Source: an uncultured Pelagibacteraceae bacterium
GTDB lineage: Bacteria > Pseudomonadota > Alphaproteobacteria > Pelagibacterales > Pelagibacteraceae
DNA length: 64,000 nucleotides
NCBI GenBank assembly: GCA_902619835.1
Contig: CACNFS010000003.1
Location: 1 to 64,000 of the forward strand
Reading direction: 5' to 3'
Both the position numbers and the translations under genes were made by a program. Positions within the stretch are counted from its first letter, which is position 1, and every line of letters starts with the position of its first letter. Below are positions 42,522 to 49,285 of the stretch, piece by piece. The notes below the pieces were generated by a model, which worked only from the letters and a program-made list of their open reading frames with translations, did no database searches and had not been told where the DNA came from.

Positions 42522-42986
42522 ATGACAAAGAATAAATATTTATCTTTAACTATAATTTTATTAATTACCTTTGTAGCACCTGCAATAGGAGGTTATGCGA
42601 CATCAGCATTTAAAGAGCCCTGGTACTCACAGATAATATTGCCAAGTTTTAACCCTCCAAGTTGGGTATTTGCACCTGTATGGTCGAGTTTATATTTTTT
42701 GATGTCATTAGCTATTTGGAAAATATGGATAAAAATTTTCGATAGTAAATTAATTAAATTATATTTTGTGCATATATTTTTTAATAGCACGTGGACCATT
42801 GTATTTTTTGGATTTCACCAAATTGGTTTAGCATTAATAAATCTTATTATAATTTTAGTATTTATAATTATTTTGATGAAAGAATACTTTAGCAAAGATA
42901 AAATTAGTTTCTATTTAATGATACCCTACATATCTTGGACAAGCTATGCGTTGGTTTTAAATAGCGCAATATTTTTATTGAATTAA
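42522..42986 (+). CDS. tspO: TspO/MBR family tryptophan-rich sensory protein
   Basis: PWYSQIILPSFNPPSWVFAPVWSSLYFLMSLAIWKIW; 5 TM. Confidence 0.92.
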   Translation: MTKNKYLSLTIILLITFVAPAIGGYATSAFKEPWYSQIILPSFNPPSWVFAPVWSSLYFLMSLAIWKIWIKIFDSKLIKLYFVHIFFNSTWTIVFFGFHQIGLALINLIIILVFIIILMKEYFSKDKISFYLMIPYISWTSYALVLNSAIFLLN

Positions 42987-46005: not shown

Positions 46006-46202
46006 AAAGACCTCCCTTTGCAATTAGATATTTAATAATTGGTGCAATATTAGTTTTGCCACCAATACTAAGCACTCATTATGGAACAATTTATTTGGGA
46101 AAAAATAATGGGGTTCTACTAGGTTTCTCCGTAGGAATTATTTGCGTATCATTTGCTTGTTGGAAACTTTTCATAGATGGTTGGAGAGATGACGAGGACT
46201 AA
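46002..46202 (+). CDS. Small membrane protein (TTG start)
   Basis: 66 aa, two TM segments; 4-nt overlap with upstream gene and 1-nt with downstream gene. Confidence 0.55.
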   Translation: MKRPPFAIRYLIIGAILVLPPILSTHYGTIYLGKNNGVLLGFSVGIICVSFACWKLFIDGWRDDED

Positions 46203-47338
46203 TGAAATTTGAAATCTCAAGAGAAGGAGCTTTGAAACAGCTTGGTGTTTTTATAAACAGTGAACTAGCAAATTATAGTTTCAAAAGAAATTTTGATTTA
46301 GGACCAAATGACAAAACGAATGTATCTTGCTTATCTCCTTATATTACCCATAGATTGATTACTGAGTACGAAGTCGCAAAAATAGTTTTAGCAAAGTTTC
46401 CATATCAAAAAGTGGAAAAATATATTCAAGAAATATTTTGGAGAGTTTATTGGAAAGGTTGGTTGGAGCTTAGACCTCAAGTTTGGTCAGATTTTTCAGA
46501 GGATTTAAAAGCGTTAAAGGAAGATGATAATTATAAAAAAGCTATTAATGGCGAAACTCAAATTGAATGTTTTAATGATTGGGTAAAAGAGCTTAAAGAA
46601 AATAATTATTTACATAATCATACGAGAATGTGGTTCGCTAGCATTTGGATATTTACTTTAAATCTACCTTGGCAAAAAGGAGCAGAATTCTTTATGAAAC
46701 ATTTATTTGATGGTGATGCTGCTTCTAACACATTGAGTTGGAGATGGGTTGCTGGACTTCAAACTAAAGGAAAGCACTACGTTGCTAAATCATGGAACAT
46801 AAGCAAGTTTACTAATAATAAATATAAGAATGTTAAATTAAATGAGAAAGCTTTATCTTTAACAGACAAAAGAGAATATAAATTAAATCCACTTAATTTT
46901 ATTATAGAAGATAATTCAAATGAAAATTTATTACTTTTTGAGAACGAGTTAAATTTAGAAAGTAAAGATTTAAAAAAATATAAAAATATTTACTTAATTT
47001 TATTAAGCAATAAGGCTCGAAAGCTAAAACTAGAACAAAAAGTGCTAGACTATAAATTACAGTTGGCTAATGATCAAAAAAAAAGATTTGAAGATTTACA
47101 GATCATAGATGAGGTAAAATTTCAAACTCTTGCCGATGAAATTAACTATTTTGATGTCATTCACCCATGTATAGGAGAGAATTTTTCTTTTTTAAATACT
47201 ATCAGAAAAAAGCGAAATTTAGAATTAAACTTTGTTTTGAGTGAGGAAGATAAATTTTCTTGGCAATTTTCTAATAAAGGATTTTTTAACTTTAAAAATA
47301 ACATTCCTAAAATTTTAACTAGTTTTAATTTACAATAA
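46202..47338 (+). CDS. Photolyase/cryptochrome-type FAD-binding domain protein with N-terminal FAD domain and novel C-terminal domain
   Basis: SCLSPYITHRLITEYEV, EIFWRVYWKGWLELRPQVW, LHNHTRMWFASIWIFTLNLPW..GAEFFMKHLFDGDAASNTLSWRWVAGLQTKGKHYVAKSWNISKFT match photolyase FAD-domain motifs in order, starting at residue 1. Confidence 0.85.
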   Translation: MKFEISREGALKQLGVFINSELANYSFKRNFDLGPNDKTNVSCLSPYITHRLITEYEVAKIVLAKFPYQKVEKYIQEIFWRVYWKGWLELRPQVWSDFSEDLKALKEDDNYKKAINGETQIECFNDWVKELKENNYLHNHTRMWFASIWIFTLNLPWQKGAEFFMKHLFDGDAASNTLSWRWVAGLQTKGKHYVAKSWNISKFTNNKYKNVKLNEKALSLTDKREYKLNPLNFIIEDNSNENLLLFENELNLESKDLKKYKNIYLILLSNKARKLKLEQKVLDYKLQLANDQKKRFEDLQIIDEVKFQTLADEINYFDVIHPCIGENFSFLNTIRKKRNLELNFVLSEEDKFSWQFSNKGFFNFKNNIPKILTSFNLQ

Positions 47339-47339
47339 T

Positions 47340-47465
47340 TTATTTAGAGGAACACTTCTTAGAACAATATTTTACTTTATCCCAATTTAGTCTCCATTTT
47401 TTTCTCCAAGTAAAAGGTTTATTACAAACCGGACAAGTTTTTTTAGGCAAATTAGCTTTTTTCAT
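47340..47465 (-). CDS. DUF2256 family protein (41 aa)
   Basis: Manual translation [52 protein letters not shown]......VKYCS..C is the DUF2256 signature; not in ORF track. Confidence 0.9.
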
Positions 47466-47811
47466 CATTAAGCAGATGTTTATTTTTTATAAATAGAAAA
47501 TAAGCTGCAATCTCATAGAAAATATTTAATAAGAAAAACAGAGGTTTAATTTTAAATATCTTATATAAAAAATTATATTTAGGAACATTTTTCCAAATTA
47601 TTAAAAAAGACTCTGCTCCATCAATTACTCTACCATCTTGTATAACATGCATTCTTCTTAAAAGTTCTTTATAAGATTTGGAAGTAATTTTCCGGGCTTC
47701 CTCATTATTAGTTACATCTATCCATTCTACGCTGTTATCACTATGTTTTTTGTAATGATTGATTTCGGCTCTACAAATATTACACGAATTGTTAAAAAAA
47801 ACTTTAACCAT
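47452..47811 (-). CDS. DUF393 (DCC-type thiol-disulfide oxidoreductase family) protein
   Basis: [57 protein letters not shown]. Confidence 0.9.
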
Positions 47812-49285
47812 TAGTATTTTCTTTTATAAAATTATTGGCAGCTTTGAAAATTCTTGTTTTTCTCTCTTTATTCATTTTTTCAGAAACTCTGACCATCATT
47901 GCAAGACGAGGATTTTTTAAGAAAAATTTCTTATTTCTATCTATAAACTTCCAATATAATCCGTCCATTACATCACACCAAGGACCTTTTTTAAAATGCA
48001 TCATTTTAAGAAAATAACTAGATCCACAAATATAAGGTTTAGTTGCAAATATTCCACCATCACTAAACAATCCCATTCCATAAACATTTGGCGCCATTAC
48101 CCAGTCAGAAGAATCTACGAACATTTCCATAAACCATTTATAAACTTGTTTTGGATTTATCTCACAAAGATTCATTATGTTAGCCAATATCATTAGTCTT
48201 TCAATATGATGTGACCAACCGAAGTTTTTAGCATTATTGATAGCATGGTCTAACGGATCTAATCCAGTACTTCCGTCATACCAGGATTTTTTCATTTTTC
48301 TTTTGTGATTAAAAAAATTAGTGTTATCTAACCGTTGATCATAGTTTTGATAAATCCCTCTCATAAACTCTCTCCAACCTATAATCTGTCTAATATAACC
48401 TTCTAAGGAATTCATTGGTACTTTACTTTCAATCTTCCTCAACTTTTCTATTATCTCTTCAGGAACTATTAAACCTAAGTTTATAAGTGGACTTAGCGCG
48501 CTATGAAAGACAGTATTTGATTTGTCTGTTACTGCATCCTCATAATCTCCAAAAAGCTTTATTCTTTCCTTTAAAAACTCATCTAACCACTTATTTGCGT
48601 CTTTTCTTGTTGTAGGAAACCAAAACTTATCAGTATTTCCAGGATGGTCTTTAAAATTAGAATTTATAAATTTTTTAAGAATAACAGTTTCTTTTGTCTC
48701 TTTGGTCTTAGAAATTACGGGAACTTTAATATTATTTGGAAGTTTTTTTCTATTGTCTTCATCAAAACTCCATTTATTTCCTTTCGGAGTTCCGTTTTTA
48801 TTCATTAATAAGTTCATTTTTGTTCTTACAATCTTATAAAAATTTGCCATGAAAGGTCTTTTATTTTTAGAAAGGTAATCCTTAAATTCCTGTCTCTCCA
48901 TTAAAAACATTGGAGACTTAACTTGGTTAATTTTAAGTGAATTTTTTTTTCCTACATTTAATATTCTTTTTTCAAAAAATTTATCCTCAATTTCAAAAAA
49001 AGTAATTTCTTTTATTTTTTTTTCTTTAATTATCTTTTCTAATTTTTTTTCGTACGACAATTTAAAATCTTTATTGACGTCTTTATATATCAAATTAAAA
49101 TTTTTTGATTTAAGCTCATCTTTAAACGATCTCATTGAAGACAAAAATAATAATATTTTTAATTTGTGATGTTTTTCAAAAGTACATAAACCATAGTCTT
49201 CTGCCATAAAAAAAGTATGGTCTTTATAGTCTGAGAGATATTTTGGGTTAAAAAGTTGATTTCCTAAAATTATAAAAAGCTTCAT
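47804..49285 (-). CDS. Cryptochrome/photolyase-related protein (FeS-BCP / PhrB (6-4)-type)
   Basis: LFIILGNQLFNPKYL, FFMAEDYGLCTFEKHHKLKILLFLSSMRSFKDEL; GYIRQIIGWREFMRGIY; SHHIERLMILANIMNLCEINPKQVYKWFMEMFVDSSDWVMAPNVYGMG; Cys-containing CGSSYFLKMMHFKKGPWCDVMDGLYW. Confidence 0.92.
   Translation of the reverse strand: MKLFIILGNQLFNPKYLSDYKDHTFFMAEDYGLCTFEKHHKLKILLFLSSMRSFKDELKSKNFNLIYKDVNKDFKLSYEKKLEKIIKEKKIKEITFFEIEDKFFEKRILNVGKKNSLKINQVKSPMFLMERQEFKDYLSKNKRPFMANFYKIVRTKMNLLMNKNGTPKGNKWSFDEDNRKKLPNNIKVPVISKTKETKETVILKKFINSNFKDHPGNTDKFWFPTTRKDANKWLDEFLKERIKLFGDYEDAVTDKSNTVFHSALSPLINLGLIVPEEIIEKLRKIESKVPMNSLEGYIRQIIGWREFMRGIYQNYDQRLDNTNFFNHKRKMKKSWYDGSTGLDPLDHAINNAKNFGWSHHIERLMILANIMNLCEINPKQVYKWFMEMFVDSSDWVMAPNVYGMGLFSDGGIFATKPYICGSSYFLKMMHFKKGPWCDVMDGLYWKFIDRNKKFFLKNPRLAMMVRVSEKMNKERKTRIFKAANNFIKENTNG

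Follow-up and report, generated by a model that had tools for sequence, protein, structure and literature searches.

Photolyases and cryptochromes are usually described as an antenna domain followed by a FAD domain, and the photolyase family has been proposed to descend from the short photolyase-like proteins (SPLs). In those parts of PMC9178010 and PMC9649867 that cite Xu et al. (2021), SPLs figure as proteins without the alpha/beta domain, and in PMC9649867 also as CPD repair enzymes. A literature search, outside whose scope the founding SPL study (Xu et al., 2021) lies, found no account of permuted or FAD-then-antenna photolyases.

The window analysed here, a stretch of 64,000 nucleotides from an uncultured Pelagibacteraceae bacterium, carries on its forward strand (46202-47338) an ATG-started gene for a 378-aa protein of the photolyase family in which the FAD domain comes first, an architecture found also in homologues 53-93% identical to it. 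The original prediction had read this frame as starting directly at the FAD domain, with the usual N-terminal antenna missing, and both statements hold. PF03441 is the sole Pfam match in the protein (aa 75-200, profile positions 2-132 of 203, E 2.1e-16), its 60.4 bits against a cut-off of 27 placing the protein in the photolyase/cryptochrome superfamily, and the solved photolyases of the PDB align only from about chain residues 178-228, which is their own FAD domain. The protein thus lacks the N-terminal PF00875 antenna by which class I is recognised, and PF04244, the marker of the FeS-BCP photolyases, is likewise absent in the Pfam search. An antenna hidden upstream, in frame or behind a frameshift, was looked for and rejected, because the frame, open over 381 aa in all, is closed three codons 5' of the ATG, the start is shared with the Pelagibacter homologues, and the genes directly upstream (a 66-aa ORF, a DUF4864-like gene and MsrA) are not antenna genes. 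The host genome (925 kb, about 80% complete), which its relatives mark as SAR11-like, has three PF03441 genes, namely a class I photolyase that lies on a different contig, the FAD-first gene and an adjoining FeS-BCP gene.

The FAD-antenna order is real and widespread. The survey of homologues that had been proposed as a check finds it kept across Pelagibacter and alphaproteobacterial families: Pelagibacter records contain homologues of equal length and start, the gene occurs in 25 of the 37 genomes searched from the genus of the window, and a sample of 190 alphaproteobacterial genomes has it in 16, from 12 families. As the C-terminal tail is conserved in about 80 Pelagibacter loci and in many alphaproteobacterial families, its presence is not due to chance. 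When a profile of this C-domain was run against Pseudomonadota, 23 of 399 genomes matched, all alphaproteobacterial and all in open frames long enough for both FAD domain and C-domain; within Alphaproteobacteria the count is 28 of 385, and in the genomes so searched the C-domain always goes together with a photolyase FAD domain. Plasmid-borne relatives are found in Ruegeria sp. TM1040, Niveispirillum, Novosphingobium, Asticcacaulis and Peteryoungia, mostly unannotated or labelled "FAD-binding domain-containing protein"; a protein common in SAR11 bears just this label even in the cultured Ruegeria sp. TM1040, where its accession is WP_011536985.1. No relative was detected in the viral contigs searched, phages gave FAD-domain matches only (25-27% identity), and among viral proteins the full model, used as a Foldseek query, found only ordinary viral photolyases, with weak matches.

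The catalytic FAD domain covers aa 1-205 (46202-46816, forward strand), is modelled as helices between residues 7 and 203, and ends after the GKHYVAKSWNISKFT segment. In trees of FAD cores, which were built without the class III, DASH and plant-cryptochrome groups, the alphaproteobacterial FAD-antenna family forms one clade (100/98) that is sister to the SPLs (86/80) and not nested within them, and that stands apart both from class I (100/100) and from the distant FeS-BCP cores (100/100). With Deinococcus and Persicobacter included, all SPL-type cores fall on one side against class I (100/100). Judged from these trees, the FAD core clearly belongs with the SPLs, outside class I, and further features are shared with SPLs, such as the FAD-first layout without an N-terminal alpha/beta domain, the truncated end of the FAD domain, the HNH variant of the N341-R342 motif and an FeS-BCP companion; by contrast, the C-x2-C motif, part of the four Fe-S cysteines of some SPLs only, is absent from the window protein. 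Among PDB sequences, that of a class III enzyme (4u63) comes closest.

As for the residues, E77, W80, R81, N139, R142, M143, W157, D170, D172, N176, W180 and W182 (46430-46747, forward strand) align with E274, W277, R278, N341, R344, M345, W359, D372, D374, N378, W382 and W384 of E. coli PhrB, so that the FAD- and CPD-binding residues of class I CPD photolyases (E. coli PhrB, A. nidulans) are present. All of these except W384 (19/21) are kept in 21 of 21 aligned members, as are Y222, R226 and L237 (E. coli PhrB numbering), S235 being kept in 20 of 21; R342 is replaced by His, as in SPLs, and W306, the distal tryptophan of the triad, is missing. In E. coli photolyase the aligned residues serve FAD binding, CPD contact and the Trp chain. 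On the strength of the kept FAD and CPD residues, the His at R342 and the missing W306, the protein is predicted to be a CPD-type photolyase whose electron chain is altered and whose FAD domain would repair pyrimidine dimers with electrons that light drives from reduced FAD.

A different function, as a light sensor or another flavoprotein whose C-domain would be structural and free of chromophore, is rather unlikely, even though it is the alternative that survives best. It would fit the absence of W306 and the fast divergence of the C-domain, the mean column identity of which is 30%, as well as the fact that every sampled genome with a FAD-antenna gene has class I and FeS-BCP photolyases besides; it is opposed by the invariance of the FAD-binding and CPD-contacting residues and by the description of the related SPLs, in the part of PMC9649867 cited above, as CPD repair enzymes. 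Within the 190-genome sample, FeS-BCP genes (PF04244) occur in 16 of 16 genomes with the FAD-antenna gene vs. 39 of 174 others, with a Fisher value of 4e-10 that overstates the significance because the genomes are related, and a class I photolyase is likewise present in all 16. FeS-BCP genes also accompany all four SPLs of the sample, compared with 35 of 170 genomes that have neither an SPL nor the fused gene, and no genome of the sample combines an SPL with a FAD-antenna gene. S. elongatus likewise has a class I photolyase, an FeS-BCP enzyme and an SPL (PMC9178010). These patterns suggest that SPLs and the fused proteins take one and the same place as partners of the 6-4 enzyme.

Behind the FAD domain, a linker (aa 206-240, 46817-46921, forward strand), modelled without secondary structure and with pLDDT as low as 63, leads to an alpha/beta domain of the HUP type (aa 241-374, 46922-47323, forward strand), which the original prediction had taken for a relocated antenna-like domain. 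The structure prediction that it called for, an AlphaFold2 run on 29 Pelagibacter sequences, gives a full-length model of pLDDT 89.7 and pTM 0.90 with a folded alpha/beta domain at the C-terminus, in which strands 242-246 and 262-266 are followed by helix 279-295, strand 299-302, helix 304-313, strand 316-320, helix 325-338, strand 341-345 and three short helices. This is the order expected for a photolyase antenna domain. Photolyases and cryptochromes top the PDB list of the full model; the isolated C-domain retrieves by Foldseek HUP-type folds, phosphopantetheine adenylyltransferases (PPATs) first, then cryptochromes and PhrB. As modelled, the fold is by itself not decisive for the antenna identity of the domain, because PPATs, another HUP family, rank ahead of the cryptochromes.

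At the sequence level, the C-terminal 151 aa have no match in Pfam or NCBIfam, the PF00875 model does not match aa 241-374 directly, and a class I antenna model, run in HMMER, finds nothing significant on the fused proteins. A direct hhalign comparison of C-domain and class I antenna is colinear, with P between 0.0006 and 0.1 depending on the sets used, so that the direct signal is weakly visible and it is the antenna domains of SPL-type proteins, as intermediates, that decide the question of homology. PF00875 is still recognisable behind the FAD domain in two plasmid-encoded FAD-first proteins of Deinococcus (E 7e-4 and 1e-3), unlike in the window protein, and SPL relatives in Persicobacter have such a domain at the C-terminus too. 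In Deinococcus sp. QL22 the two parts are separate genes with a 4-base overlap, one for a FAD protein of 257 aa and one for an antenna protein of 173 aa (PF00875, E 2.3e-4), the pair being recorded as WP_249396019.1 and WP_249396018.1. An antenna profile built from the C-terminal and standalone domains of Deinococcus, together with Persicobacter, matches, in four of four alphaproteobacterial SPLs that had passed for antenna-less, a small ORF that comes immediately after the FAD gene (E 5e-21 in L121, 2e-18 in L120, 5e-16 in L122 and 5e-9 in L119); two of these ORFs are also weakly matched by PF00875 (E 0.04 and 0.1). These standalone antenna-domain genes, which adjoin the SPL FAD gene in front of them or overlap it by a few bases, lie at 978-1406 of L121, about 974-1408 of L122 and 1028-1420 of L119 (all reverse strand), and at 2115-2531 of L120 and 3166-3687 of L306 (both forward strand).

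That such domains are photolyase antennas is indicated by alignment A5, which, searched against 399 genomes, found one member of its own and 25 other places, all 25 being antenna domains N-terminal to FAD in ordinary photolyases (E down to 1e-10). The C-domain of the fused genes was not matched in this search, and since HMMER gave no significant match there either, the link to the C-domain of the window rests on profile-profile comparison and on the fold. The combined set SAB2 aligns by hhalign with canonical antenna domains over 137 columns (P 5.8e-11) and with the alphaproteobacterial/SAR11 C-domain end to end over 136 columns (P 2.2e-6; P 1.2e-5 for the Pelagibacter-dominated set), these P-values being those of single comparisons, not database-wide; reversed profiles gave P 0.2-0.6, and the best non-photolyase decoy family, the HUP protein CoaD, gave P about 0.003. 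The register extends to the terminal motif GFFNFKNNIP (aa 360-369, 47279-47308, forward strand), in which G360 and F362 are invariant and which is the counterpart of the VFTPFWK with which canonical antenna domains close. In the alignment with SAB2, GFFxFK stands against FFxYWK, and the earlier comparison of GFFxFK with VFTPF is borne out by Deinococcus QL22, where the sequence is TKFFGFWKR. Taken together, profile comparison establishes full-domain, in-register homology of aa 241-374 with the antenna domain that other photolyases have at the N-terminus, via the SPL intermediates and in agreement with the fold. It is highly unlikely that the C-domain is instead an accessory alpha/beta domain of other descent, such as a nucleotidyltransferase-like one, that only resembles an antenna. 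The PPATs at the head of the Foldseek list, the missing direct Pfam match and the weak direct comparison with class I speak for it, against which stand the end-to-end profile links in the same register, a CoaD match of just about 40 columns, and the constant tie of the C-domain to photolyase FAD domains; the A5 search and the SAB2 comparisons already mostly refute it.

The name given to the protein in the original prediction, a possible circularly permuted photolyase, suits the FAD-then-antenna order better than it suits the origin. A true permutation of a class I gene, by tandem duplication and loss of the outer halves, is the least probable reading. In its favour, the FAD-antenna order can formally be had from antenna-FAD by circular permutation, and the C-domain ends where canonical antenna domains end; against it, the FAD core groups with SPLs and not with class I, the antenna is not permuted internally, the PF03441 match extends only to position 132 of the 203 in the profile, similarly to SPL-type proteins, and split pairs of a FAD gene and a downstream antenna gene exist. 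The protein is very likely a photolyase of the SPL lineage with its antenna C-terminal to the FAD domain, derived most likely by fusion of an SPL gene with the antenna gene directly downstream, a route that the gene layouts point to because SPL relatives keep the antenna as such a separate gene. Given the SPL-type core and the split gene pairs, this is a swap of domain order, to which gene fusion probably led, and not a class I photolyase in permuted form. In class I photolyases the homologous antenna is N-terminal and the FAD domain longer at its C-terminal end. The C-terminal antenna presumably docks on the FAD domain, and may hold, or once have held, a light-harvesting chromophore. The FAD-first proteins of Deinococcus and Persicobacter (L302, L304, L305, L303 and L307) have the same FAD-then-antenna order, whereas their FAD cores are closer to SPLs than to the alphaproteobacterial clade; as the fused Deinococcus proteins stand beside alphaproteobacterial SPLs with a separate antenna gene (94/88), there was probably more than one event of fusion or fission.

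In comparison with SPLs as described, without any alpha/beta domain, the window protein differs by the antenna domain fused to its C-terminus, and the alphaproteobacterial SPLs themselves encode the domain as a downstream gene. It is therefore reasonably plausible, on the five split cases from which the idea of a downstream antenna gene in SPLs generally is drawn, that SPLs are not antenna-less, but receive an antenna subunit in trans from the gene directly downstream, which in alphaproteobacteria (including the abundant SAR11), Deinococcus and Persicobacter is fused C-terminally, photolyases then having two opposite domain orders. Should SPLs function with an antenna that is either a separate protein or fused at the C-terminus, the picture of the antenna-less SPL as ancestor of the family needs re-examining, and the split pairs permit a direct test of antenna docking and energy transfer in trans.

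The neighbours named in the original prediction were all correctly identified, which confirms a context rich in photolyases. A DUF2256-like gene of 42 aa (47340-47468, reverse strand), identified from its translation and found also in the relatives L161 and L167, lies tail to tail with the FAD-first gene, followed by a DCC1-like thiol-disulfide oxidoreductase (47452-47811, reverse strand; PF04134, formerly DUF393), which also lies close to the FAD-first homologue in L109, L117, L118 and L146. The next gene (47804-49285, reverse strand; PF04244 and PF03441) is the FeS-BCP-type photolyase, the constant genomic companion; it belongs to the same superfamily as the FAD-first protein and to the type of Agrobacterium PhrB and Rhodobacter CryB (prokaryotic 6-4 photolyases), from which the FAD-first protein differs by the absence of their PF04244 N-terminal domain. 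In several alphaproteobacteria (L111/L163, L141, L153, L176) the FAD-first gene has as its neighbour a class I photolyase or a portion of such a gene. In Asticcacaulis, a flavin amine-oxidase-like NAD(P)/FAD protein (PF13450/PF01593; L301, 1749-2693) directly precedes the fused gene, and what by eye resembles the end of a similar protein lies upstream of an SPL gene (L120, 2-331); such a protein is a possible electron donor. In Persicobacter psychrovividus, the FAD-first gene is followed, with overlapping frames, by one for a second, cryptochrome-like protein with an N-terminal antenna (L303, 2968-4542). A gene of the TspO/MBR family (42522-42986) is located near the photolyase cluster of the window, beside a short-chain dehydrogenase gene.
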